Origin: a virus
IMG/VR virus record: IMGVR_UViG_3300007960_000178
Span: 1 to 24,634 of that record
DNA length: 24,634 nucleotides
Direction: 5' to 3' (one strand)
The notes under the pieces were generated by a model that saw nothing but the letters and a program-made list of their open reading frames with translations, was not told the origin of the DNA and did not search any database. The stretch's first letter is position 1. Each line of letters starts with the position of its first letter. The translations under genes and the position numbers were made by a program. Shown one piece after another: positions 1,573-22,479 of this stretch.

Positions 1573-3935
1573 TGGCACGAGTAGCACAAGCATACCCGAC
1601 GCCGATACATGGGGTTAGTACATTAGCCCCAAGAAACCGCGCGAAAGGTCAAGCAGCAGCGCAGATTAACATGCGAAGCGACCCAGTTAATAAGTTGACA
1701 AGACGTCCGCCACTAACATGGGATGCAGCCCTAGCCTTCGCAGAGGATACGGCCATAGCACATCACAGTTACTATCGTAAAGGTAAGCGTATACGTTTAG
1801 TGATAGAAGATGATGGGACAGTTAACGCATTCATAGACAACCAACCCAAGCCATTAACTGGCACACTTGGGAGCTATCGTGCAGGCGAGTTAGCCATGGC
1901 TACGGTAAATGATACGACATTTGTAGTAAACAAAGACAAAGTAGTACAACTGTCTACAGATACCGACGCAAACACCATCCAGAAAGCCGTACATATAAAC
2001 GTGCTGCACGCATTGAATTATAGTACCACACTAACGGTTACTGTGAGTGATGCAAATGACAATGTCCTAGGTACATCCACAATCACGGTAGGTGACGGTA
2101 TTGATGACCCTAGAGGTTCGTTAGCTGCACACGATGCAGCCCGTGCAGTAAACACGGTAGCGACAAAGATTGCAGAGCATTTAGCAGCAATAGCTGGTAT
2201 CACTACGGTAGCAAAAGGCTCTAGCGTTGCCATCCAGTATGACGATAACTCAGTATGGCCAAAGGTTACAGTAGAAGGTGGTCGTGGGGATGACGTAGTT
2301 GTTATAAGCGAAACAGTTGCCAACATAGAAGGTTTACCTCTGTATGCAATTCCTGGGACACGTATAACAGTTAAACCAGACCCAGTAAGTAAAGATGGTA
2401 CATACTATCTTGAAGCAGTGACACTAGAAGGTGAGAACACAGGTGGTATGCAAGAAGTCGTATGGGATGAAGCACGTTCACCAAACGAGCCATACAAGTT
2501 TGACGCATCAACAATGCCTCACACTGTGGTATACGACAATGCTACGGATAGTTTCACAGTAGGTCCGGCTACATGGTCAGAGAGACGCGCAGGTGATAAT
2601 GAATCATGCCCAGTACCAAGTTTCGTAGGTAGACGACTTAACGCAGTCAGCCAGTTCCAGAAACGGTTAGTGCTATTATCAGAGAATGATGTAGCTATGA
2701 CACGTACAGACAACTTCTTCAATTGGTGGAAGAAATCCGCAGTACAACTGCTGGTGACCGACCCTATTGAAGTTACGTCCAACGCAACAGGTATTGATGA
2801 ATTACAGTACGTGGTAGAACACAACAGAGACCTCATGATTGTAGCGTCTAATGGACAATTCAAGATTGATGGTACGACAGGTATTACACCACAGACAGTA
2901 GCAATGCCGTTAACAACCTCACACACTATCCAGACAACTGTAGCACCAGTATCTATGGGTACGTCTGTATATATGCCAATAACATATGGCGATAGTACAG
3001 GAGTAATCCAGTATACGGGTAAACGCGACCAAGGTGACGCGGCCAATCAGATAACACATCATGTGATAGGTTATATGAAAGGTAACGCCAAGCTATTCGC
3101 AGGTAGCCCTAATCTAGAAATGCTAGCAATGACTACTACAGGAGCAGCGCCAAATGAGCTATTCATTTACGAACAGTTCACGCAAGAAGGCTCGGTAGGA
3201 CAGCAGGCATGGAGTAAGTGGGTTATACCAGATGTAGACGAGATTGTGGCTTTGGACTTTACAGAGTCAGCACTGACGTTAATAGTAGCTAATTCCAGAA
3301 GATTGTACGCCAAGACATTTAATATGTACTCACGAGTTGCGACAAACACTCACGAAGTATATTTGGACAATCTGATAGAATTAGACACAAACGGTACTAC
3401 CGTGACACTACCATTCCAGTACACATGGGGTGCAGAGACATTAGTCAATAAACTGATAGTAGTGATGGGTAGTGGGACAATCTATCCGCTAGAGAGCATA
3501 GGCTATACACGACACATCGATGTACTTACATTTAATGAGGACATTGGCGCAGGTAAAGTGTATGTAGGGCTACCGTTCACATCATCATATGAACCGACAC
3601 GACCATTCATCGAGGATGGCTCAGGTATAGTGGTCACAACAGACCGTGTACGGATAAGTAGGTTTGTATTGAATGTTGTGGACACCGAGCGTGTGCGTAT
3701 GAAGATAACGTCAGATTACTATGACTATGAAGACCAAGAAATGACTCCACGTGTATTAGGTAGTAACAAGAACCTAATAGGGACAGTAGATTTGTACACT
3801 GGTGACTATAAGTTTAGTTACTCACAGGATGCAGATTTAGCAACAGCTACATTCTACACCGACGGGTATCTAGGTATGACTATAGCAGGTATTAGTTGGG
3901 AAGGTCAGTACAGACAAAGTAGCAGGAGACTATAA
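1572..3935 (+). CDS. Tail tubular protein B (nozzle), T7 gp12-like
   Basis: The product has 787 residues against 794 for T7 gp12. It is beta-rich throughout, as expected for the hexameric nozzle that closes the short tail and forms the DNA exit channel. Typical family features are visible: an N-terminal PTPIHGVSTLAPRNRAKGQA segment followed by NMRSDPVNKLTRRPP (the family pattern of Q.NM..dp..GL.RRPP), and a central QKRLVLLSENDVAMTRTDNFFNWW stretch. The start shares its A with the stop of gp11. It ends with the same TAATG overlap into the next gene, so gp11-gp12-gp14 read as one translationally coupled unit. Nothing odd is seen apart from normal divergence. Confidence 0.92.
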   Translation: MARVAQAYPTPIHGVSTLAPRNRAKGQAAAQINMRSDPVNKLTRRPPLTWDAALAFAEDTAIAHHSYYRKGKRIRLVIEDDGTVNAFIDNQPKPLTGTLGSYRAGELAMATVNDTTFVVNKDKVVQLSTDTDANTIQKAVHINVLHALNYSTTLTVTVSDANDNVLGTSTITVGDGIDDPRGSLAAHDAARAVNTVATKIAEHLAAIAGITTVAKGSSVAIQYDDNSVWPKVTVEGGRGDDVVVISETVANIEGLPLYAIPGTRITVKPDPVSKDGTYYLEAVTLEGENTGGMQEVVWDEARSPNEPYKFDASTMPHTVVYDNATDSFTVGPATWSERRAGDNESCPVPSFVGRRLNAVSQFQKRLVLLSENDVAMTRTDNFFNWWKKSAVQLLVTDPIEVTSNATGIDELQYVVEHNRDLMIVASNGQFKIDGTTGITPQTVAMPLTTSHTIQTTVAPVSMGTSVYMPITYGDSTGVIQYTGKRDQGDAANQITHHVIGYMKGNAKLFAGSPNLEMLAMTTTGAAPNELFIYEQFTQEGSVGQQAWSKWVIPDVDEIVALDFTESALTLIVANSRRLYAKTFNMYSRVATNTHEVYLDNLIELDTNGTTVTLPFQYTWGAETLVNKLIVVMGSGTIYPLESIGYTRHIDVLTFNEDIGAGKVYVGLPFTSSYEPTRPFIEDGSGIVVTTDRVRISRFVLNVVDTERVRMKITSDYYDYEDQEMTPRVLGSNKNLIGTVDLYTGDYKFSYSQDADLATATFYTDGYLGMTIAGISWEGQYRQSSRRL

Positions 3936-4483
3936 TGAATCTATTCGCACAGACTGCACAAACAGGTATACAGACACTGCATCTATTAGGTGGTGGCGAC
4001 AACGCAGGTACAGTACAAGCGTACAACCAAGCCTATGGTTTACAGTCAGCACGTTTCGCAGCACTGAACAGAATCAATACAGCCGAAGGCAATATAGCCG
4101 CAATTAATCAGGATAGGGTACTTACTAACGTAGCTATAGAGATGAACCAGCAACAGGCTGAGGCAATGGCACAAGTCAACGCAGCGGCAGCAGGTGTAAG
4201 CGGTGGCTCAATAGATACAGTAATGCAAGGTATAGCAGGTAATGCAGCTATGGCACGACAACGTGCTAAAGCAGAGGCAAACCAGTTAACTGAACAACAG
4301 TTATCAGGTATCAACAACGCATTTATGGACTTGAAGAGTATACCAGACACACCAGAATCAGACCCATTAATGGCAGGTCTATCGGCAGGTATCGATGCCA
4401 CTGTACAATACTTTACAGGCGGCAGTGGCGGAGTAAGTAACATACAACAAGGCGAAGCATTCGCTAGCCTGTGGAGAGGTTAA
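3935..4483 (+). CDS. Internal virion (ejection) protein, T7 gp14-like
   Basis: The product has 182 residues; T7 gp14 has 196. It is alanine/glutamine-rich and helical. The segment EAMAQVNAAAAGVSGGSIDT, continuing VMQGIAGNAAMARQRAKAEANQL, resembles the gp14 pattern in which a GSIRAAIGESMLEGSS-type turn is followed by a long helix. In T7, gp14 is ejected first and forms the outer-membrane part of the DNA-translocating channel with gp15 and gp16. The T7 gene 13 homologue that usually precedes it is absent: the start follows gp12 directly by TAATG overlap. Its own stop overlaps the gp15-like start at 4483. Confidence 0.82.
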   Translation: MNLFAQTAQTGIQTLHLLGGGDNAGTVQAYNQAYGLQSARFAALNRINTAEGNIAAINQDRVLTNVAIEMNQQQAEAMAQVNAAAAGVSGGSIDTVMQGIAGNAAMARQRAKAEANQLTEQQLSGINNAFMDLKSIPDTPESDPLMAGLSAGIDATVQYFTGGSGGVSNIQQGEAFASLWRG

Positions 4484-6768
4484 TGGCAGAGTTCGGTTTA
4501 CCAGAACGTTCGGCTATAACAGACGCTAATGCAGGTGTGGTTAATCCACCTGCTAAGCGTAGAATAGTAAGAGCAAATATAGCACAAGGTACTAAGCAGC
4601 TATCAGCATCTGACATAGGTATTGCACAGATTGGGCGTAGTATAGGTGACGCATTAGGCGCAGTCCTTGAGAAAGAGGGCGGTCGTATGCAACAGCAGAA
4701 GATACTCGATGCTGAGATACGCCAAGGTACAGAGACAGCTATTAATTCTGTAGACAAAGTAAAACAAACTACAGGATGGGAACGCGCTATATTTGGTGAA
4801 AACATTGAGTATCGTGCAGCACAACAACGTGCTGTGGAGAACCAAGTACAAGCGTCGTATCTAGAGCAGTTACATAATGTGAGTACACATGCAGGTAGTA
4901 CACCTGAGCAGTACCATGAGCAACTACAGAAAGCTAACAACAAAGCATTAGAGCAGTATAAGGATGACCCTGAAACACAGAAGCTCGTGCTACGTCAATT
5001 ACAAGACGTAAATAAGAAGTTAGCCAACGCACATTACAAGCAACATTACGCATATAACCAACAGCAGCAGCAAGAGACCACACGTGTCCAACTGATGCAG
5101 AGATTAGATACGTACAACTTAGAGCGCGCAAACAACATTTCTCCAGAAGAGATGGACGCACACTTACAAGAGGTAAGTAACTTCTTTACTGAGAAGTACA
5201 AGCCAGAAGGTATGGATTCAATCGCGTTCAGAGCGTTGCAGATGGAAGCAATCACCACACATATGAAAGCAGGTAATGCTGGAGCTATGAAAGCAGCACA
5301 GGCCACAGGATTCGTTAATACGTTTACTGCGCCTGAGTTGAATCAGTGGGATAATGCTGTAAGTGAGTACGACACGCACTTTAATAGACAGGTTGACTTA
5401 ATACGTACTAAAGCAGACATTGCATTAGAGCGAGCACAGACACCTGAACAGATTCAAAGCGTAGTAGCAAACAAGCGTAAAGAGTTATCAGAAAAGTTCA
5501 AGCTTGCATCAGGCTCAGACCGTAGCCTATTAATTATGGCGAAAGGCGAGCTGCACATGGAGCAGGGACTGACTAAAGCAGAAGTTTTGGCTAAAGCTCT
5601 ACAGAAAGAAGAAGCGAAGACACAGGCGGCAGCAGACAAGAAGCTTGCAGAGTTGGAAGAACAAGTAGTGAAGGACAATGCACTAGCAGCGTATTTCAGT
5701 ACGAACGAACCAGCAGTTAAAGCAGACTTGCAGCGAACCCATAACTTAACGAAGAAAGAACGTGAAGAGGGTTTTGACACACATCTGTTAGCAGGCGCAC
5801 AGACATTCATTGGTGGAGACTTACCGCCTACGGTGACTGAGTATGCACAGGAGCTACAGAAGAATCCTGAGCTACAAGAGTGGACGTTACAAGAAATGAA
5901 ACGTACAGGTGAGGTGTCACCGATGTTAAAGACCATCCTTTCGACAGCTACACAAGCTACTGACCGGATGTTCGACGAGAATGGTAATGTGTCAGAAGTA
6001 GGTCTACAGACAGCACGTATGGTAGATAAGTTGTTGGAGTCTCCGAAAGCAGTCGATTTGATTGGCGGTAAGGATGCACTGCGACAATGGAAGATAGTGT
6101 CATTAGGTGTACAGGCAGGTTCAGGACAACAGCACATCGAGAAGAAAGTGACAGCGTATAACCAGAATAAGGGTAAAGCTGACACAGCGGGATTCCAGTG
6201 GAAGACTCTAATCGGTGATATGTCAAGACGTGACTGGATGATGCAGCGGTTACAGAAGTTAGGTATACCCAACCCAAGTAACCAGATGATTACCGACGAG
6301 CTAGAAGCATACAGAGAAGATGTGACAGCATTTGGTTATGATACCAAAGAAGCAGACCACTCTATGAGAATGCGAGTATCTAACGGTAAGACGAAGATAT
6401 TCAGCAGCACAATCTCAAATGCAGCCTACCTAAACGAAGTTACTAAGTGGACAGCAGAAGACTTCATTACTATTGCGGAAAAGCACAACTTCCTAGCAGG
6501 TAAGTATGCAGATTTAAGTGGCTCAAACAAAGAAGTTTATCGGTCACACACCCAGATACCTAACTTACGTTGGTATACTAAAGAAGGTGTGGCAGGACTA
6601 TTTGCATCATCTCCGTCATCGAACAATGAACTGTTCATTAGCACAGACGAGATGCAAGAGATAGAGCGATACGTAACAGAGCGAGAAGAAGTAGAGAAAG
6701 CTACTCGACAGTTCCGTGAAAAGCGTAATCGTTCGGTAGACATAAGTAAAGTACTAACAAGATTCTAA
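4483..6768 (+). CDS. Internal virion (ejection) protein, T7 gp15-like
   Basis: The product has 761 residues; T7 gp15 has 747. The ATG at 4483 is preferred over an in-frame GTG at 4471, because the GGAGAGG at 4473-4479 is then a ribosome binding site and the start overlaps the gp14 stop as TAATG. The protein is almost wholly helical and rich in Q, E, K and A, with a glutamine run near residues 194-198 (NQQQQQE) and long heptad-like stretches (LAKALQKEEAKTQAAADKKL). The N-terminus has a basic PPAKRRIVRANIAQGTKQ patch. In T7, gp15 forms the periplasmic tube of the ejectosome between gp14 and gp16. No lytic transglycosylase motif (E-S, G-L-M-Q) was found here. Confidence 0.85.
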   Translation: MAEFGLPERSAITDANAGVVNPPAKRRIVRANIAQGTKQLSASDIGIAQIGRSIGDALGAVLEKEGGRMQQQKILDAEIRQGTETAINSVDKVKQTTGWERAIFGENIEYRAAQQRAVENQVQASYLEQLHNVSTHAGSTPEQYHEQLQKANNKALEQYKDDPETQKLVLRQLQDVNKKLANAHYKQHYAYNQQQQQETTRVQLMQRLDTYNLERANNISPEEMDAHLQEVSNFFTEKYKPEGMDSIAFRALQMEAITTHMKAGNAGAMKAAQATGFVNTFTAPELNQWDNAVSEYDTHFNRQVDLIRTKADIALERAQTPEQIQSVVANKRKELSEKFKLASGSDRSLLIMAKGELHMEQGLTKAEVLAKALQKEEAKTQAAADKKLAELEEQVVKDNALAAYFSTNEPAVKADLQRTHNLTKKEREEGFDTHLLAGAQTFIGGDLPPTVTEYAQELQKNPELQEWTLQEMKRTGEVSPMLKTILSTATQATDRMFDENGNVSEVGLQTARMVDKLLESPKAVDLIGGKDALRQWKIVSLGVQAGSGQQHIEKKVTAYNQNKGKADTAGFQWKTLIGDMSRRDWMMQRLQKLGIPNPSNQMITDELEAYREDVTAFGYDTKEADHSMRMRVSNGKTKIFSSTISNAAYLNEVTKWTAEDFITIAEKHNFLAGKYADLSGSNKEVYRSHTQIPNLRWYTKEGVAGLFASSPSSNNELFISTDEMQEIERYVTEREEVEKATRQFREKRNRSVDISKVLTRF

Positions 6769-6777
6769 GGCATAACA

Positions 6778-9700
6778 ATGGCACAGATTACTAAGAATAC
6801 GGATGGAGATACATTCCGTGTAGACGGTACATCAACGCGTGTCTTAGGTATCAATACAGACGAAAGTGTTGCAGTTAATGAAGACCGCAACACTCAGTCT
6901 GGTAGAGATGCCAGTGACAAAGCAAAGATTATCGCACCTGTAGGTACAGAAGTACGTACAGAAGAAGCAGGTAAAGGTAAGTTTGGCCGTACCCTAGCAG
7001 ATGTAAAGATACAAACAGCAAAGGGTGAAGTAGATTATGGCTTAGTGGCGTTAGACCAAAGTATGTCTAAGTACAGCATCGAGTACGGTAAACACCCAAA
7101 CCCAGAACAACACGACTTGTTCAAAGAGTATTTCTCACAGAACGCACCATACCAGTATGCAGACTATCGAGAACTGTTGGATAGAGAAGAATACGCGACA
7201 GTTGCTAAGAATATAGATGCATTCAATATAGCACACAAGCAATACGAAGATGGTGAGATAAGCAGAGAGGCGTATGAAGACGCTATGTATACTGCTTACG
7301 GTGATGGTGAGAAGGTAGCCCGATTCCGCTACCAAAACATGCAATGGCAGCGTGACTTTGATATGAAACAGTATGACGGTAGTGACCGCATGGCTTACGA
7401 CTGGGCACATCAGAGTAAAGAGAATCGAGAAAAGTATGACTTGGCCATTCGTAATAGTCATACAGGTTTCCGCAGCAATCCTGAGAAAGACGTAGGATTC
7501 TGGAAATCATTAGCGGCAGGTACGGAGACGGCGTTTAGCATGTTCAATGATATAGCTGTATTAAACAGATATAAAGACTTGAGCAATGCACGTAAGTATA
7601 GCGACGACAAGTTCGATGTAAGTGATGAAGAGTTAGTCCGAGGCGTTCCACCAGAGTATCACAACTTAGTGATGCAAGAAGCCGAAGAGTATGGTGACGA
7701 TTCAGCATTACAGTATCGAGACAATTTACTAAAGTCTCTACAGAATGAAGAAGACTTCAATGAGTTACCTCTAGCAACACAAATAGTGACAGCCATACCA
7801 GCTGTACTAGCTAGTCCTGTAACGTTGGCAACAGGTGGCGTTGTCGGTACAGGTGTAATAAAGGTAACTAAGACTATAGACGACATAATGGCTGTAGGTC
7901 GATTGAGGAATCTCCGTATACCCGCTAAAGTAGTAACATGGGCAGCAGCAGGCGCGTTAGAAACAGGTGCAAGCGGTACGCCTAGACTTGGAACAGACGC
8001 CAACTTCACATCAGCAGATATGTTGAATGAGATGAAGTATGGTGCAGCGTTCGGCGTAGTAGTACCAGCAGCAATGACTGGTATTAGTAACAGCGCCAAA
8101 CGTCTCCAAGATTATTCAGCACGGATGAAACAGGCTCAACAGAGCATACAACGAGAGACAGAAGAGTTGGCAGGGAGGCCGCCAGTCACTCTGGAGAAGC
8201 CACGTATACGTGTAGTATCAGGTGGAGTAATAGACCCAGAAACAGCAAAAGTTAAGTCTGTACACGACATGACTCGTGAAGAGCTTGCAGCAGAATCAGC
8301 TAAACAGATTGACCACGTACTGGCAAACTTCTCAGAATTACCTTACCAAAGAGGGAAGGTGAGTGCGGCAGTGGATGTAGCTACAGCTACTCAAACAAAG
8401 AGTCTGACGCAGACCATGTTAGAATCAGACTCTAGAGTAGCTAAGTTCATCGGTTCAGAATTACTAGAACTACCAGAAGGTATTGGTGGTACGGTAGTTA
8501 GACAACCAACAGCAGCTTTGCAACAGCATAGCTTGCGTACACGGTATCTCTCCGACACACAACCGATATACCACAAACTAATTGGTGAGTATGCGGGTGA
8601 ACATGGTAAACGTGGTGTAGGTAAGATGATGGCTCAGCATTTTGATGGGCAAGGCAGTCCGTTGGTCAATAAGTTTAGTCGTGATGTGGCAACAGTGCTA
8701 GAACAACGACGTCAGGGTAAGCCTGTAACAGTCAAGTCTCAAGCGGTGTTGAAGATGGTAGACGCATTTGAAAACTCTATGTCTAAGATGTTTGACGACT
8801 TAGTAGACGCAGGTGTATCAGGCTTTAGTAAAGACAGACGTGTAAAGAACTACTTCCCACAATTATGGGATAATGGTGCTATGCGCGGAGCTGTAACCAA
8901 GTATGGTGAGAAGCGCGTACAAGATGTGTTGGCCAAAGGTTACTTGGCATCTAAGCATAACGACATCGAGGATATGGTATCAGCACAATCAGCAGCTAAG
9001 TCCTTACTAGATAAGATTAAGACAGACGACCTTGTAGATGGTGCGTTACCTACTACTGTAGATGCTCGTGCCAAAGCACGTCTTGATATAGATACAACTG
9101 TGTCAGATGGTGAGCTGAGTATCATGGATTTGATGGAGACAGATTTATCCACAGTATCAGCCAAGTATGCCAACAGAGCGGCAGGACGTGTTGCATTAGC
9201 ACGGAAGGGTATCACAGGAGACATGGATATTGACGAGTTGCGTAAGCGTTACATAGCAGAAGGTCAAGACCCACAGCTATTTGACGATACGATAAACTTA
9301 GTAATGGGCAGACCAACAAGAGAAGGTCTAGACCCAGCACTTAACGAAATCAAAGATGCAGTCAGTCTGAGTAAGATGGGTGGCTTAGGTATGGCACAAG
9401 CCGCAGAGATGGGTAACGTACTTAGCAGAGCAGTATTGAACTTGTTTAGTGACCCTAAAGTGTTTAAGAAGATATTCTCACTAGCTGGAGAGTCTACACA
9501 AGACAAAGCCCTTATGAGAGAGATACAAGCACTCTCAGGCATATCCAACGACGTGCACCTTCTCGACAGACAAGCAGTACATTTAGACCGTGCTGCACTG
9601 GACGAAGCTAGGAACGTACGTAAATTGGGTTACTGGATAGCAGGTAAAGCCTCATTCGGTAAATACAAAGCACCAGCAGGGTATATCCTAGGCAAGGTAT

Positions 9701-10542
9701 CGGGATTCAACATGATTCGTAGATTTGAGAGACGTATAGCAAACGCATCTTTCTTATTAGATACAGCCAAACACTTCAAAGATGGTACTGGCAAAATGTC
9801 AGCAGCTCGTATGAAGGATATAGGATTAGACCCAGAGGATGCCCAGCTTAAACGTATCTTTAGAGATGTCGTAGAGTACGACGAACACGGTTTAGCAAAG
9901 AAGCTTAACCTAGACAAATGGCCAAAGGATGTACGTGAACGGTATCACTTAGCGATGTATCGAGACGATGCACAGATGGTACAGCAAACCATTGGTGGTG
10001 AGATGCCTGCATGGATTAACAAACCTTTAATGACAATCGTAGCACAGTTCAAGCAACAAGCTATACTTGCCAACAAGAAACAGTTAACCAGACAGATGCA
10101 ATTTGCCGACAAAGAGGCTACGCTTGCTGTTCTGATGAATACTGCAATGGCAGCTATGACACGTACAGCTAAGTTTGCAACGCTAGGAACAGGTGCATAC
10201 CTGTTGACAGGTGACGAGTCTGAGATAAGTAAGCCGTGGGAGAAAGACTACTTCCAAGCAGAGAAATACGTATCTACATTTGGGTTCTTCCCAGACATGG
10301 GTCATATTGCGTACAGTAGCTTCAAGGCATTTGACGAAGACCGTATGTCAGTAGAGACAGCAGCGGAAGGTATAGCATCAGAGATACCTATGTTAAGTTG
10401 GATGCGAGATTACTACACGTTAGGTACAGCAGATTCATTAGAGAAGAAAGCTGAGGCCGCTAAAGGTGTAGCTATACTCGGTAATATGCAATTTGCTGAT
10501 TTAATTTATAAGGGTATAGAAGCCCAGCTAGAGGATAAATAA
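6778..10542 (+). CDS. Large ejection protein, T7 gp16-like, with N-terminal staphylococcal-nuclease-like domain
   Basis: The product has 1254 residues (T7 gp16: 1318). Position, size and the long helical body identify it as the inner core/ejectosome protein that spans the cytoplasmic membrane during DNA entry. Residues about 5-100 do not look like the transglycosylase of T7 gp16. They match the SNase (thermonuclease) fold: DGDT (9-12), RVLGINTDE (21-29), GRDASDKAK (42-50) and GKFGRTLA (67-74). Set against SNase numbering, D21, R35, E43 and R87 correspond to D11, R21, E29 and R71; the calcium ligand D40 is replaced by N26. Hydrophobic stretches lie near residues 331-362 and 1137-1149. TAAGG at 6766-6770 precedes the start, and the stop overlaps the fibre gene as TAATG. 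The gp16-like role is confident; nuclease activity is an inference. Confidence 0.88.
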   Translation: MAQITKNTDGDTFRVDGTSTRVLGINTDESVAVNEDRNTQSGRDASDKAKIIAPVGTEVRTEEAGKGKFGRTLADVKIQTAKGEVDYGLVALDQSMSKYSIEYGKHPNPEQHDLFKEYFSQNAPYQYADYRELLDREEYATVAKNIDAFNIAHKQYEDGEISREAYEDAMYTAYGDGEKVARFRYQNMQWQRDFDMKQYDGSDRMAYDWAHQSKENREKYDLAIRNSHTGFRSNPEKDVGFWKSLAAGTETAFSMFNDIAVLNRYKDLSNARKYSDDKFDVSDEELVRGVPPEYHNLVMQEAEEYGDDSALQYRDNLLKSLQNEEDFNELPLATQIVTAIPAVLASPVTLATGGVVGTGVIKVTKTIDDIMAVGRLRNLRIPAKVVTWAAAGALETGASGTPRLGTDANFTSADMLNEMKYGAAFGVVVPAAMTGISNSAKRLQDYSARMKQAQQSIQRETEELAGRPPVTLEKPRIRVVSGGVIDPETAKVKSVHDMTREELAAESAKQIDHVLANFSELPYQRGKVSAAVDVATATQTKSLTQTMLESDSRVAKFIGSELLELPEGIGGTVVRQPTAALQQHSLRTRYLSDTQPIYHKLIGEYAGEHGKRGVGKMMAQHFDGQGSPLVNKFSRDVATVLEQRRQGKPVTVKSQAVLKMVDAFENSMSKMFDDLVDAGVSGFSKDRRVKNYFPQLWDNGAMRGAVTKYGEKRVQDVLAKGYLASKHNDIEDMVSAQSAAKSLLDKIKTDDLVDGALPTTVDARAKARLDIDTTVSDGELSIMDLMETDLSTVSAKYANRAAGRVALARKGITGDMDIDELRKRYIAEGQDPQLFDDTINLVMGRPTREGLDPALNEIKDAVSLSKMGGLGMAQAAEMGNVLSRAVLNLFSDPKVFKKIFSLAGESTQDKALMREIQALSGISNDVHLLDRQAVHLDRAALDEARNVRKLGYWIAGKASFGKYKAPAGYILGKVSGFNMIRRFERRIANASFLLDTAKHFKDGTGKMSAARMKDIGLDPEDAQLKRIFRDVVEYDEHGLAKKLNLDKWPKDVRERYHLAMYRDDAQMVQQTIGGEMPAWINKPLMTIVAQFKQQAILANKKQLTRQMQFADKEATLAVLMNTAMAAMTRTAKFATLGTGAYLLTGDESEISKPWEKDYFQAEKYVSTFGFFPDMGHIAYSSFKAFDEDRMSVETAAEGIASEIPMLSWMRDYYTLGTADSLEKKAEAAKGVAILGNMQFADLIYKGIEAQLEDK

Positions 10543-13064
10543 TGGCACAGACAATACGTACGCATCTGGGTACAGGGTCAGCCACCGTATACGATGTGAG
10601 TTTCGACTTAGGTTATCTAAGTCGTGACCACATCTACGTGTACCAAGGCGAAGACTACACACAGAATCAAATAGCGTTTACATGGGTAAGCAACACACAG
10701 ATACAGTGTACAGTACCAGTTAACGAAGGGTTCTACATACGTAGGGTAGTACCACGTAATGCACCGATAAACAACTATTCAGACGGTGCTATACTACGGG
10801 AGCGTAACCTAGACGCATCATTCGCACAGTCTCTAATGATACTAGAAGAGATACAAGACGGTTTCACAGGACTTGTACAATTCGACTTATCTGTACCACT
10901 AGACATGAACGGGCAACAAATACGCCAGTTAGCAGATGGTATAGAAGATGACGACGCGATTAACTTAGGACAAGCAAGGCGGGTATTCCAAGCCATTAAA
11001 GGTGGCGCAATCATAACGTACTCCGACCAAGCAGAGCCAACTGCCTCAGAGTACCCAGAAGGTACGAAGTGGTTAGTAATAGATACCAACGCAGAGTATA
11101 CCCAGATGGAAGGCTTTTGGGTAGAGGACGGGAAGGTAGGTGATAATGTTGACGTAACAGCGGCTAGTCATCTTACGTTAGCTCAGGCTCAGGCGAGTGA
11201 CTTGAAGGTTGGGCAGTATGTGCGGTTGACTGATTGCGGCAATACTCTGTATCAAGTTGTTGATGCTAGTGATACTGGCAAATACTATATCACAACTTTA
11301 GCTAGCGGTAGAAAGCTAGGGTTAATTGACAAGGAAATAAGCTGCTCTGGTCTCGGTATGACAGAAGGTGTTGGACAAGACAACTCAGCAGTGCTAAATG
11401 CGCTTGATACTTTCGACTGGGATTCGTTAGACGTGGACGGTTACTACGAGTTTACGTCTAATGTTGTTAATGTTATGCCTGACAGAAAGGTTAAATTACA
11501 TGGCTCTGGTGAACTGCATGGCGTTAGCGCTTATATCACTTTCCAAGGTCAACTTGTTGATTATGGTCAAATTATCAGCGCGGACGCTAAAGGTTCCAAG
11601 TATCTCGCTGTCACCAACACGGCTGGCCTATCAAGCGGTGACATAATTATAATCCACAATCAAAACGACTACAGCTATTCGCCTCACAGACCCGAGTATC
11701 ACGAAGGAGAGTTTAATGTAATCAAGAGCGTTGACGGTGTTAGCGTCCTCACAACAGAGAACTCTTTAAAAGCGTACTACGGGTCTTTAACAAACATTAA
11801 GATGTACAAACTAAACCCAGTTATCTTAGAGTGCGATACAAAAATAACTACTACAGGTTCAGCGATTTATGCGTTGGCCGTAAAGTATGGTGCTACATGC
11901 AAGTTCGACTCGCGTGCGAACATACGGGCAGAACTATCAGCGAACGCGGTTGGGGCTTTGTTGGTCGACAAGCTTTTTGGTTGCGAGTTCAAGGGCGGTA
12001 GATTCTTTAATGACGCTCCTGCTAACGGAACTCAATACGGCATTAATATATCAAGCTGCGCGAATGTTTATGGGTTCGGATTAGTTGAAGCTCACGCAGC
12101 TAGACACGGCATTGCTACTGGTTCGGATGGTACTTCTGGCGGAGTTCCTTGTGATAATATCTGGTTCCACAAAAGCCGTATTTCAAACGATGGGAACGCT
12201 ATCTACTCAGCGGACTTCCACGGTAACACTAGAAACAGTGGTTACGTGTCTTGTGAAATAGATAATGATGTTGGTATCGGCGGCGAAAATATCACAATTG
12301 ATGGCAACACTATAATCGCTAAGCGAGCTAATCCTCCGCTTGAGCTACAAGAGATTGTTGGCGGTGAAATCAGAATCACAAACAACATAGTTAAGCTTGG
12401 CGAGGGGTTCAACTTTAACACTTTAGTTGCGTTTAGCTCATCTACACTAAGTCAGAATGTTTCTAAAGACTTTAATCTGACACTCAAAGATAATGAGTTT
12501 GAACTAAACGCTGGAGTTACAGAGATTGTGACAATGCTATATAATCAAACTCTTGCAGTGAAATCCACGTTTACGTTCGACGGTTTTAGTCTGAGTGGAA
12601 ACACAAGCGGGTTAACTAAGTATGCTAGTTTAAACCGTCTTGGCGCTGGTTTAAATCCGTATCAAGTTCACATATCAGAGGATAAGTTTACTCTTGATGC
12701 ACCAGCATCATACGTTACTCTTTCTGGCTCTTTTGTTGGCACTAAGTTTAATCTCCCATCCCAAAGATGTCCGTCTGTACCTTTAACAATTCTGAGCGGA
12801 CAGAGCGAAAGCACAAAGGGCGGCAGCGGAGATACTGGAATTTACGTATGGGATTATGTAAATTATCCATCTATACCGCATATCAGTGTAGACCACACAG
12901 GTTGGGCGAGAGCTGGCGACCCTCAATTATTCATGGCGATAGAGACTGCCGCCTCAAACAGTTGCCAGATATTCTCTACAACGGCAGCAAACTCGATGAC
13001 GGTTGGGGCGGATAGAACTCTGACGATAAATGCAGAAGTCCGTTACAGTGGAGTTGTATTGTGA
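10542..13064 (+). CDS. Tail fibre/tailspike with T7 gp17-type N-terminal anchor
   Basis: The product has 840 residues (T7 gp17: 553). Residues 1-150 are the conserved gp17 virion-anchoring domain: an opening Y.VSFDLGYLSRDHIYVY, then RRVVPRNAPINNYSDG, and LRERNLDASFAQSLMILEEIQD. Residues about 206-260 form a small beta module (LTLAQAQASDLKVGQYVRLT) that recurs in the next gene. From about residue 270 the sequence looks like a right-handed parallel beta-helix, with repeated N-I-T-I-D-G-N-T-type turns (NITIDGNTII, IRITNNIVKL). This is typical of receptor-binding spikes, which often cleave surface polysaccharide; no catalytic residues can be named. Codon style changes near 11150 from GTA/GCA-rich to GTT/GCT-rich, suggesting that the distal part was acquired by exchange. 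Confidence 0.88.
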   Translation: MAQTIRTHLGTGSATVYDVSFDLGYLSRDHIYVYQGEDYTQNQIAFTWVSNTQIQCTVPVNEGFYIRRVVPRNAPINNYSDGAILRERNLDASFAQSLMILEEIQDGFTGLVQFDLSVPLDMNGQQIRQLADGIEDDDAINLGQARRVFQAIKGGAIITYSDQAEPTASEYPEGTKWLVIDTNAEYTQMEGFWVEDGKVGDNVDVTAASHLTLAQAQASDLKVGQYVRLTDCGNTLYQVVDASDTGKYYITTLASGRKLGLIDKEISCSGLGMTEGVGQDNSAVLNALDTFDWDSLDVDGYYEFTSNVVNVMPDRKVKLHGSGELHGVSAYITFQGQLVDYGQIISADAKGSKYLAVTNTAGLSSGDIIIIHNQNDYSYSPHRPEYHEGEFNVIKSVDGVSVLTTENSLKAYYGSLTNIKMYKLNPVILECDTKITTTGSAIYALAVKYGATCKFDSRANIRAELSANAVGALLVDKLFGCEFKGGRFFNDAPANGTQYGINISSCANVYGFGLVEAHAARHGIATGSDGTSGGVPCDNIWFHKSRISNDGNAIYSADFHGNTRNSGYVSCEIDNDVGIGGENITIDGNTIIAKRANPPLELQEIVGGEIRITNNIVKLGEGFNFNTLVAFSSSTLSQNVSKDFNLTLKDNEFELNAGVTEIVTMLYNQTLAVKSTFTFDGFSLSGNTSGLTKYASLNRLGAGLNPYQVHISEDKFTLDAPASYVTLSGSFVGTKFNLPSQRCPSVPLTILSGQSESTKGGSGDTGIYVWDYVNYPSIPHISVDHTGWARAGDPQLFMAIETAASNSCQIFSTTAANSMTVGADRTLTINAEVRYSGVVL

Positions 13065-20519: not shown

Positions 20520-20793
20520 TTTCGTCCTCTTAGGCTGCTTCCTATCGCGTTATAGGCTAGGTCACTAATTCGCCTACTCTAGTCAATCCTTTGGTCACTT
20601 CCTTTATACTATACATCCTTATATATAGTGGAAGTGCCTGTCAATTTGACATGTCCTCTAAAACTACTCTAAATCGCATTCTATTGGTATAAGGCAATTT
20701 ATGGTACTACCGTACCTCTAGGCTAATATCTCTCGTCTGTGGGCTAATTTAGTGGGTTATTTTTGATTATTTAGGTTCTGCCTTAGGGTATTA
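20520..20793. other. Right-end non-coding segment with hairpins
   Basis: There is no supported gene in this segment. A strong hairpin lies at 20596-20636: CACTTCC (20596-20602) pairs with GGAAGTG (20630-20636), and inside it ACTATA (20608-20613) pairs with TATAGT (20624-20629). It is followed by an inverted repeat GTCAA-T-TTGAC near 20640-20650 and a 5-bp hairpin GGTAC/GTACC at 20703-20716. No U-tracts follow. These stems may end or process late mRNA. Confidence 0.5.
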
Positions 20794-20827
20794 CCTAACT
20801 CCCTTAGACTACCTAAGACTACCTAAA
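20794..20827 (+). repeat. CCTAA/CCTTAG short repeats at 10-bp spacing (SRR-like)
   Basis: Motifs begin at 20794 (CCTAAC), 20802 (CCTTAG), 20812 (CCTAAG) and 20822 (CCTAAA); the last three are exactly 10 bp apart. T7 and relatives have arrays of the heptamer CCTAAAG beside their terminal repeats (SRL/SRR). Similarity of motif and position suggests the same role in concatemer processing or packaging. Confidence 0.6.
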
Positions 20828-20852
20828 TCCGTCAAAGAGAAGGAGAACAGTT

Positions 20853-20875
20853 GTACACAGTTATAGGGAGATGTA
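20853..20875 (+). promoter_or_regulatory. Possible phage-polymerase promoter with T7-like initiation box
   Basis: TATAGGGAGA at 20862-20871 is identical to the -4 to +6 region of the T7 class III promoter, and upstream GTACACAGT shares only loose similarity with the T7 recognition element. It lies near the genome end, where T7 has phi-OR/phi-OL. Because TAGGG is also the local repeat unit, the match may be coincidental. The window's polymerase is also divergent. Confidence 0.3.
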
Positions 20876-20960
20876 GGGAGATGTAGACCTGTGTGCACAT
20901 AGGAATACATAGGATTAGCTAGGGTTACATAGGGTAGAGATAGGGTTAGATAGGATTACC
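20864..20960 (+). repeat. TAGG(G) short repeats at 10-bp spacing
   Basis: TAGG or TAGGG begins at 20864, 20874, 20900, 20910, 20920, 20930, 20941 and 20951, with a degenerate TAGAC at 20884. Apart from a 16-bp step after 20884, units are 10 or 11 bp long, so the motifs face one side of the helix. The motif is the reverse complement of the CCTA core of the preceding array, so the two arrays point toward each other across about 35 bp. Confidence 0.7.
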
Positions 20961-20963
20961 CGA

Positions 20964-21284
20964 AATATTAAAAATGGGTGAGAAATATGAAGTGGCACTC
21001 ACGTAAAAACACCAAAACCAAAGTCCCCCTTAGGGGGTACTTATGCCTATTCGGCAGGAAGTCACTGCGTAGACGTTGCTAAAAGCATTCGCTACGCTCA
21101 CAAGGGCATTCGCTACGCTCACAAAGACAAAAAGACAAAAGAACTCGCTGCGGGCACTCGCTCGGATAAGGAGGTCGCAACAAAAAGACGTTGCTCCTTT
21201 TGTCTCCTTATTATGAAGCCGTGCTAACAAATAGGTGAACAGGGCAAGCAACATACGCGCTGATAGAGCCAACACGTGCTGAAA
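20964..21284. other. Segment between repeat arrays: candidate terminal-repeat/cleavage region
   Basis: No convincing gene is present. The segment holds a GC hairpin 21025-21029/21033-21037 (CCCCC-TTA-GGGGG), a 21-bp tandem repeat (21085-21124), and the decamer AGACGTTGCT twice (21071-21080, 21187-21196). It also holds a large stem-loop 21166-21211 (ATAAGGAG/CTCCTTAT with inner GCAAC/GTTGC) and a competing long-range pair AGACAAAAG (21133-21141) with CTTTTGTCT (21197-21205). The position between two short-repeat arrays fits the terminal redundancy of T7-like genomes. Exact ends cannot be read from one sequence copy. Confidence 0.4.
21085..21124 (+). repeat. Tandem repeat, 19-bp unit with 21-bp period, two copies
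   Basis: GCATTCGCTACGCTCACAA occurs at 21085-21103 and again at 21106-21124. The related ACTCGCTGCGGGCACTCGCTC follows at about 21142-21162. Two copies at a period of exactly two helical turns suggest a protein binding site rather than a CRISPR-type array. Confidence 0.75.
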
Positions 21285-21373
21285 CAAGGGTGCACACAGT
21301 GTAAACAACCTTTGCGCTGATAGAACCAAGGGTAAACCTGTGTGAACAAGGGTTAACGCAAGGTATAACAAGG
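21285..21373 (+). repeat. CAAGG(GT) short repeats, first cluster (SRL-like)
   Basis: CAAGG starts at 21285, 21327, 21347, 21359 and 21369 (steps 42, 20, 12, 10). Three copies read CAAGGGT. Two units carry an adjacent GCGCTGATAGA sequence (about 21258 and 21315). Steps close to multiples of the helical repeat match the behaviour of the other arrays in this region. Confidence 0.6.
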
Positions 21374-21452
21374 CAGTAGCTGTAATAAGTTATTGTTAGT
21401 TGGTTGTTAGTTAGTGGTTGTAGGTGGTGTGAGGTGGTTGTGGAATAGTGTG
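21374..21452 (+). repeat. GT-rich low-complexity tract
   Basis: The + strand is almost free of C and built from GTTGTTAGTTAG- and GGTGGTTGTGG-type steps. There is no ORF. Strong strand asymmetry of this kind favours unpaired or R-loop-prone DNA, but no function is assigned. Confidence 0.5.
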
Positions 21453-21487
21453 GACATAGACGCTTAGATATGTCTCTTTTTATTTCT
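21453..21487 (+). terminator. Weak hairpin followed by U-rich tract
   Basis: GACATA (21453-21458) pairs with TATGTC (21469-21474), followed by TCTTTTTATTTCTT. The stem is AT-rich and only 6 bp, but the T-tract is good. It may insulate the early region from read-through across the genome junction. Confidence 0.45.
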
Positions 21488-21547
21488 TACATCCATTACA
21501 TTAGAACAACCATGGTGCACACAGACAGCACATACAGCCTGTTAAAC

Positions 21548-21648
21548 CAAGGGTAAATCAAGGTAGTACACAGTAGTATCAAGGGTGCACACAGGTAAAC
21601 CAAGGGTAGACCAAGGTTGAATCAAGGGTGCACACGTAGTAGACAAGG
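21548..21648 (+). repeat. CAAGG(GT) short repeats, second cluster, helically phased
   Basis: CAAGG starts at 21548, 21559, 21580, 21601, 21612, 21623 and 21644, giving steps of 11, 21, 21, 11, 11 and 21 bp, all close to multiples of 10.5. Two units share the extension TCAAGGGTGCACAC (21579, 21622); GTGCACAC also occurs near 21290 and 21512. The cluster lies just before the first early gene, as SRL does in T7. Confidence 0.7.
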
Positions 21649-21674
21649 ATTGTATAAGTTATGGAAGTTGTAGG

Positions 21675-21702
21675 TTACACATAGTATGTAGTTATGTACT
21701 AT
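21675..21702 (+). promoter_or_regulatory. Possible host sigma-70-type early promoter
   Basis: TTACAC (21675-21680) and TACTAT (21697-21702) are separated by 16 bp and lie about 40 nt before the first early start codon. Each hexamer matches only part of the consensus. An early promoter read by host polymerase is expected here by T7 analogy. The exact site is uncertain. Confidence 0.3.
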
Positions 21703-21741
21703 AGTTGTAGTAATTAAATTGTTAACCGTTAGGAGAATACC

Positions 21742-21795
21742 ATGAGTTATTATATTGACAGTCAAGGCATCATCGTGTTCATTACACGTAAGTAG
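21742..21795 (+). CDS. 17-codon leader peptide
   Basis: ATG at 21742 is preceded by AGGAG at 21731-21735, one of the best binding sites of the window, and ends at TAG 21793-21795. The product MSYYIDSQGIIVFITRK is too short for a domain. The next start (21802) follows after 6 nt, and its own weak AGG lies in this frame's stop region. This tiny frame therefore most probably couples ribosomes onto the downstream membrane protein. No attenuation-type codon run is seen. Confidence 0.5.
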   Translation: MSYYIDSQGIIVFITRK

Positions 21796-21801
21796 GTAGT
21801 A

Positions 21802-21966
21802 ATGGATGCAGATGAACTAGCAAGAGCAATATCTGTTGCAATCGTGTTTAGCATGTGGCTTGTATTGTTGTGGGGTTGTGGCGGTACATTAGTGAAGACT
21901 TTAAGGTCTGTGAAGTTTACAAGACTTAAAAGACTTAAAAGATTAAAGACTAAATATGGGCTTTAA
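21802..21966 (+). CDS. 54-residue early single-TM protein with basic (RLK)3 tail
   Basis: ATG at 21802, TAA at 21964-21966. The product has a short acidic N-terminus (MDADELARA), a TM helix (ISVAIVFSMWLVLLWGCGGTL) and a strongly basic C-terminus (KTLRSVKFTRLKRLKRLKTK). By the positive-inside rule the tail should face the cytoplasm. The tail is encoded by three 9-bp tandem units (21922-21948, AGACTTAAA twice then AGATTAAAG). Position as the first early gene suggests a host-takeover or exclusion role, as for small early membrane proteins of T7-like phages. It matches no family I can name. Confidence 0.65.
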   Translation: MDADELARAISVAIVFSMWLVLLWGCGGTLVKTLRSVKFTRLKRLKRLKTKYGL

Positions 21967-22479
21967 CGGGCTATCCGCTACAATTACACAAGCGGCCACT
22001 TATCAACAGCGAGGTTAACCTTAGCAACAGAGTATACGTGGCGTGCTTATGTAATTCCGCTACTATCCCTAGCCTCTAGCGCGCATCCGCTTGCAACCAA
22101 GATTAAAAGAAGGCGCTGAGTGCTTATCCCAAAACCCAAGAGCTACACGATGCCAATATTGTGTATTTCACTAACCAGTTGTAGAAAGTGAATCACCACT
22201 AACACACTCGGAACTGTCCACTAGCCAATAAAGTTACACGTCTTCCCTAGAGAATACAAGGCTAAAGTGAACGCTGCGCGGCCTTGTATTATCTATTGAA
22301 CACGAGTAACCAAGTTGGCAAGCGACCAGTCCCAAGTGCGAGAGGTGATAACACTTCCCACAAGCTGGAAGTGAAATTACACATATTGGCATCTAGTATC
22401 TCTAGGATTTCGGAATAAGCACACGCTTAAAGCTCCCGAACCCAGCGCTCAAGATGATAATTTCTTAGATAGGTGATGT
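21967..22479 (+). ncRNA. Candidate large structured RNA in early leader region
   Basis: No ORF longer than about 15 codons with a binding site exists here, although the phage is otherwise gene-dense. Many stems can be drawn. GGCTA 21969-21973/22070-22074 encloses 21982-21993/22045-22056 (11 of 12 pairs) and GCCAC 21995-21999/22038-22042, with the palindrome AGGTTAACCT (22012-22021) near the apex. Further stems are 22144-22151/22158-22165 (8 bp, one GU), 22167-22172/22187-22192 (6 bp), 22248-22262/22281-22295 (14 pairs, one mismatch), 22352-22358/22367-22373 (CACTTCC/GGAAGTG) and 22409-22413/22436-22440 enclosing 22416-22420/22425-22429. No tRNA and no group I intron core were found. An ornate phage RNA (in the manner of ROOL or GOLLD) or an mRNA leader with processing stems are the two readings. 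Confidence 0.45.

Follow-up and report, generated by a model that had tools for sequence, protein, structure and literature searches.

In a viral DNA stretch of 24,634 nucleotides (IMG/VR record IMGVR_UViG_3300007960_000178, hereafter the window), the gp16-like ejection protein begins with a domain of about 126 residues that, by predicted fold and homology, belongs to the staphylococcal nuclease (SNase) family. This domain is under purifying selection, with a constraint comparable to that on the C-terminal gp16 body. In the literature examined for this comparison, every enzyme domain described for a T7-like ejection protein cuts peptidoglycan, and a conserved nuclease fold on a part of gp16 that is periplasmic in T7 would be ejectosome cargo of a new class. 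The finding also raises the questions of which nucleic acid would be cut at entry, how the packaged DNA would be spared, and whether a first phage might disarm later arrivals. Two cultured carriers, the Alteromonas phages vB_AmeP_R8W and vB_AspP-H4/4 (R8W and H4/4 below), make bench testing possible.

The gp16-like protein and its genomic context

The gene order of the window, gp14-gp15-gp16-tail fibre, follows T7-like synteny. The gp16 reading frame begins at the ATG at 6778, shortly after the stop of the gp15-like frame at 6768, and its 1254-aa product matched phrog_37474 with an E-value of 3e-234. On sequence homology, this protein is a gp16 homologue and not a T7-type transglycosylase gp16. 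The features of the operon are as follows.

3935..4483, plus strand: gp14-like internal virion protein (PF24072 T7_gp14, E 4e-6, above cut-off)
4471..6768, plus strand: gp15-like internal virion protein, 765 aa (29% identity to the R8W internal virion protein over 96%)
6769..6777, plus strand: gap of 9 bases between gp15 and gp16, too short for the lysozyme reading frame found here in R8W and H4/4
6778..10542, plus strand: gp16-like ejection protein (internal virion protein), 1254 aa (phrog_342, phrog_37474, tblastn to the R8W and H4/4 internal virion protein)
6778..7155, plus strand: SNase-like domain, residues 1-126 (16-member profile against the PDB, AlphaFold/Foldseek, homologous domains above the Pfam cut-off)
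7156..7485, plus strand: predicted helical linker, residues 127-236, where T7 has its 'molecular tape' (AlphaFold; analogy with T7 gp16 157-228)
7486..10428, plus strand: gp16 body, residues 237-1217 (phrog_342 'internal virion protein with endolysin domain', E 2e-84)
10542..13064, plus strand: tail fibre with T7-type N-terminus, directly 3' of gp16 (PF03906, E 7e-17)

Within the linker region, AlphaFold predicted helices at residues 136-157, 163-174, and 177-189. The tail fibre additionally contains a pectin-lyase-like domain (residues 475-684; PF22442, E 2e-15), possibly a capsule depolymerase. Further downstream, approximately 2 kb without a convincing gene (20520-22472) separate the late genes from an RNA polymerase reading frame (22661 to the window end); here, the two ends of the genome may meet in a contig that is permuted. 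Approximately 500 residues in the middle of the gp16 proteins of relatives are absent from the window protein, the site being 8080-8450 (about residues 435-556), and a Pfam scan of this extra region in R8W, L013, L014, L015, and L017 found no domain.

Identity of the N-terminal domain

Searches with single sequences proved too weak, so that alignments were used instead, and these settled the SNase identity. As a single sequence, the window domain scored 14.2 bits against Pfam SNase (PF00565; E 0.063), below the family cut-off of 21 bits, and a six-frame search of the genome with PF00565 did not pick it up. A phmmer search of the first 125 residues against the PDB returned chance matches only, and a search for related loci with single window proteins as queries found none. 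The PHROGs search matched the domain to the endonuclease family phrog_452 (E 6e-6).

The corresponding domains of relatives scored above the Pfam cut-off, with 27.1 bits in R8W, 28.9 in L014, 36.6 in L015, and 30.0 in L017, and 10 of the 16 alignment members had a Pfam SNase match at E<=0.01. Against the PDB, a profile of four sequences matched thermonucleases (best E 4e-4), while the profile of all 16 matched solved SNases and thermonucleases with an E-value of 2e-8. AlphaFold models from the 10- and 16-sequence alignments both predicted an OB barrel with the topology b1-b2-b3-a1-b4-b5-a2-a3, which is the SNase order, and the best 50 matches listed by Foldseek for both models against the PDB were all SNases, with E-values down to 2e-5 for the 16-sequence model. 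The overall rmsd of 6-8 A is inflated by the low confidence of the last helices (residues ~95-128). Among viral structures, the best match was the BFVD entry A0A516LXN0_1 (43% identity, E 4e-16), a 983-residue piece that is probably another SNase-gp16 protein.

An SNase-like domain at this position had been proposed from the sequence alone, with a profile search and a predicted fold named as the check, and both the Pfam scores of the relatives and the match of profile and model to SNase bear this out. With regards to the extent of the domain, given earlier as 6778-7110, the start holds, whereas the end lies nearer 7155.

Active-site residues and selection

The window domain shares 29-52% identity with the other 15 members of the 16-sequence alignment. 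HMM alignments gave the same pairing of active-site residues as the sequence-only reading (D11 with D21, R21 with R35, N26 with D40, E29 with E43, and R71 with R87 of SNase).

6802..6813, plus strand: DGDT motif, residues 9-12, corresponding to SNase D19-T22 with the Ca ligand D21 (positions D19, D21, and T22 invariant, 17/17)
6838..6840, plus strand: R21, corresponding to catalytic R35 (invariant, 17/17)
6853..6864, plus strand: NTDE, residues 26-29, with N26 at the D40 position, T27 as T41, and E29 as catalytic E43 (E invariant)
6988..6990, plus strand: R71, corresponding to catalytic R87 (invariant, 17/17)

Throughout the 17 distinct viral sequences, no variation was found at the positions of D19, D21, T22, R35, E43, and R87. 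Merely 10 of the 128 window positions in the 16-sequence alignment are invariant columns; D21, R35, E43, and R87 are all among them, for which the chance under random placement is approximately 2e-5. The positions of K84 and Y85 are not strictly retained in the viral domains, and the D40 position holds N in 12/17, D in 4/17 (L070, L075, L081, and L083), and Q in one (L077).

A reading of the N at the D40 position as the sign of a lost metal site is not supported. In a sample of 199 genomes from one bacterial phylum, 29 cellular SNases had a readable motif, and eight of these carry N at this position with the remaining motif canonical; three further N cases (L020, L022, and L025) were excluded from this count because the search pattern favoured INT. 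Since N thus occurs in cellular SNases with a canonical motif, it is a natural variant and not a sign of decay, and together with the D in four viral members this speaks against loss of function by the D40 to N change. Nevertheless, the variation at K84 and Y85 and the predominance of N at D40 may mean that nuclease activity is reduced or altered.

Four pairwise comparisons gave a dN/dS of 0.08-0.15 for the domain, next to 0.06-0.13 for the conserved C-terminal body where it could be estimated. With the catalytic set conserved in this manner, it is quite probable that the domain is catalytically competent as a nuclease.

Occurrence among relatives and coexistence with lysozyme

A survey of gp16 homologues, suggested along with the initial reading, found the SNase domain on gp16-like proteins of 17 distinct viral sequences, drawn from two scans of viral contigs and a phage collection: the window, R8W, H4/4, L005, L011, L013-L017, L068, L070, L075-L077, L081, and L083. 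L018 nearly duplicates L017, and several further loci repeat the same contigs. In all 17, the domain lies at the gp16 N-terminus or close to it, and SNase and gp16 body share a single reading frame in the window and in 15/15 relatives where both are visible. The domain is absent from the gp16 homologues of L072/L073, of the Vibrio phages phiV141, JSF7, and K437b, and of RHEph02 and 526E57-1. When named phage records were searched by tblastn with the SNase domains, a match within an internal virion protein was found only in Alteromonas phages, and the remaining annotated matches were named nucleases or hypothetical proteins. The tree of the gp16 body is poorly resolved; it requires three changes of the SNase label and is compatible with a single origin as well as with several.

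One record, L010, labels 7191-10211 as 'internal virion protein with endolysin domain', yet a scan of residues 1-300 found no such domain. The label appears to be inherited from phrog_342, and such annotations may mislead.

The absence of a transglycosylase motif from the gp14-, gp15-, and gp16-like proteins, reported earlier, agrees with our Pfam and PHROGs scans, in which none of the window proteins scanned, gp15-like and gp16 included, gave a muralytic hit. The further step that cell-wall passage must be solved elsewhere is not established: the record is a 24.6-kb fragment, so that a cell-wall enzyme may be encoded beyond it, and the T7 gp16 transglycosylase domain is reported to be needed only in certain conditions (PMC8954989). 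The N-terminal lytic transglycosylase is not universal; according to the same review, its conservation does not extend to P22 or Sf6 (PMC8954989).

In several relatives, a lysozyme is encoded beside the SNase. R8W and H4/4 have a T4-lysozyme-like reading frame between gp15 and gp16 (PF00959, E 3e-4, slightly under cut-off), which ends in GTA AAA AAG TAG with the slippery sequence A_AAA_AAG, and gp16 is open in the -1 frame.

L001 7959-7974 (R8W): slippery heptamer directly 5' of the lysozyme stop
L002 7965-7980 (H4/4): slippery heptamer directly 5' of the lysozyme stop

For H4/4, a -1 frameshift joining lysozyme and gp16 is annotated in the record and was reported by its authors (PMC5658483). 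No gp16 start codon was seen before the SNase in H4/4, and its gp16 may be made solely as a lysozyme-SNase-gp16 fusion. R8W has an ATG with a Shine-Dalgarno-like AGGAG ahead of the SNase, at which gp16 could initiate. In L011 (9449-15376), lysozyme, SNase, and gp16 are fused in frame into 1976 residues, and in L016 (9965-16246) the lysozyme sits in frame at the gp16 C-terminus (PF00959, E 3e-17). The lysozyme frame of L083 (11316-11837) overlaps the gp16 end after a run of seven A; a -1 frameshift fusion was considered here and dropped, as the frame is +1 relative to gp16. Lysozyme frames overlapping the gp16 end were also found in L078 (5255-5551; a start-stop overlap, ATGGTAG) and L080 (5098-5559), where the gp16 N-termini are cut off.

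Replacement of the lysozyme by the SNase is ruled out by the presence of both in L011, L016, R8W, H4/4, and L083. The notion that the SNase stands instead of the transglycosylase therefore holds for its position in the window, but not as an exclusive swap, as a T4-type lysozyme coexists with it in relatives.

Proposed role at entry and alternative explanations

In T7, the first 156 residues of gp16 lie in the periplasm as 'wings' of the gp15 tunnel, and residues 157-228 are the 'molecular tape' (PMC8954989). Because the SNase fills residues 1-126 of the window protein and a helical stretch follows, as in T7, the domain would be placed outside the tunnel. Our preferred reading, in which we have somewhat better than even confidence from the conserved residues and the analogy with T7, is that a catalytically competent SNase-family nuclease is carried in the virion, delivered with the ejectosome, and displayed in the periplasm, where it could cut nucleic acid. 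Homology suggests that the window gp16 is present in the virion and ejected into the host. The SNase would leave the capsid as part of gp16 when the ejection proteins exit, and at the T7 'wing' position it would come to lie in the periplasm, outside the DNA conduit. Its substrates could be nucleic acids beyond the tunnel, such as DNA from competing phages or any other DNA that enters, while the genome of the phage itself would be protected inside the tunnel during passage. The enzyme is probably Ca2+-dependent, and calcium could act as a gate, being low in the cytosol, where virions are assembled, and high in sea water and the periplasm. Given catalytic competence, periplasmic action is likely by analogy with T7. 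Delivery of a nuclease at entry had been put forward before, and the SNase identity and the N-terminal place in gp16 are consistent with it.

The purpose is more speculative. Interference with foreign DNA is possible, though clearly on the less probable side, and we are equally tentative about the wider proposal that a T7-like clade delivers an envelope nuclease against the DNA of rival phages or other DNA entering the cell, the tunnel shielding the genome of the phage itself and calcium gating the enzyme. Two considerations count against the proposed role: an active nuclease in a DNA-filled capsid would require a restraint, and the periplasm is normally poor in DNA.

The evidence from the catalytic residues would apply equally to an SNase that enters the cytoplasm and, early in infection, nicks or breaks down the DNA or RNA of the host, either for takeover or as a source of nucleotides. 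According to the T7 model, gp16 does extend a hub into the cytoplasm as well; however, it is gp16-C that reaches the cytoplasm, while the N-terminal domain remains periplasmic (PMC8954989). The entering phage genome would itself be endangered by a non-specific cytoplasmic nuclease. Free Ca2+ is low in the cytosol, which likewise counts against this explanation, and we regard it as unlikely. Slightly less probable still is a domain that has lost its enzymatic function and acts as an adaptor, either binding DNA or structural, which might for instance organise DNA around the core or brace the tunnel. It would pose no danger in the capsid, it fits the variable K84 and Y85 and the frequent N at D40, and in PhiM1 the DNA density winds along grooves of the ejectosome's enzymatic domains (PMC11440229). 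Against it stand the catalytic set, invariant in 17/17 although so few columns of the 16-sequence alignment are, the D40 kept in four members, and the commonness of N at that position in cellular SNases.

A nuclease that acts within the virion or on the DNA of the phage itself, for example to trim or release a DNA end during ejection or late assembly, seems very unlikely to us. The core of T7-like virions is in contact with the packaged DNA, which speaks for it, and the PhiM1 core likewise adjoins packaged DNA (PMC11440229); yet the domain is missing from gp16 in Tawavirus, RHEph02, and 526E57-1. Finally, the single-sequence Pfam score under the cut-off could point to an artefact, either chance resemblance or chimeric assembly. 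This is refuted by genomes that were assembled independently and share the architecture, those of the isolates R8W and H4/4 among them, and by the profile match to the PDB, and can practically be dismissed.

Comparison with known systems

The closest named systems are R8W and H4/4 (genus Foturvirus), which, like the window, have an SNase (52-55% identity) followed by the gp16 body at the equal operon position. Unlike in the window, a T4-type lysozyme reading frame precedes the SNase, and their gp16 is approximately 530-560 aa longer, chiefly in mid-protein. The SNase is unnamed in their record annotations ('putative internal virion protein') and in PMC5658483, and the word 'nuclease' was not found in PMC8228385. 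The Tawavirus members phiV141 and JSF7 have a homologous gp16 body without the SNase; the phiV141 match starts at its residue ~14 and at window residue 195, i.e. past the SNase.

T7 gp16 resembles the window protein in operon position, size class, body homology (phrog_342), and the succession of an N-terminal enzyme domain and a helical region, but its N-terminus is a lytic transglycosylase that cuts peptidoglycan, whereas that of the window protein has a nuclease fold. With S. aureus Nuc and Bacillus phage YokF (PF00565), the viral domain shares the fold topology and D21, T22, R35, E43, and R87; it differs from these nucleases in its fusion to a virion ejection protein and in the mostly N-type D40 position.

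Domain swapping among ejection proteins is already known, and a nuclease in this place is apparently new, as the open-licence literature searched yielded no account of a nuclease in an ejection or internal virion protein. The gp15-like lysozyme of K1E/K1-5 and the lysozyme and endolysin-like domains of PhiM1 likewise exemplify the exchange or gain of enzyme domains by ejection proteins (PMC8954989, PMC11440229), and RHEph02 provides another swapped domain with an SleB-type hydrolase at the gp15 position (L009 3319-6558; PF07486, E 2e-17). The ejection-protein enzymes of K1E/K1-5, PhiM1, and RHEph02 are all directed at peptidoglycan, while the window domain has the fold of a nuclease.
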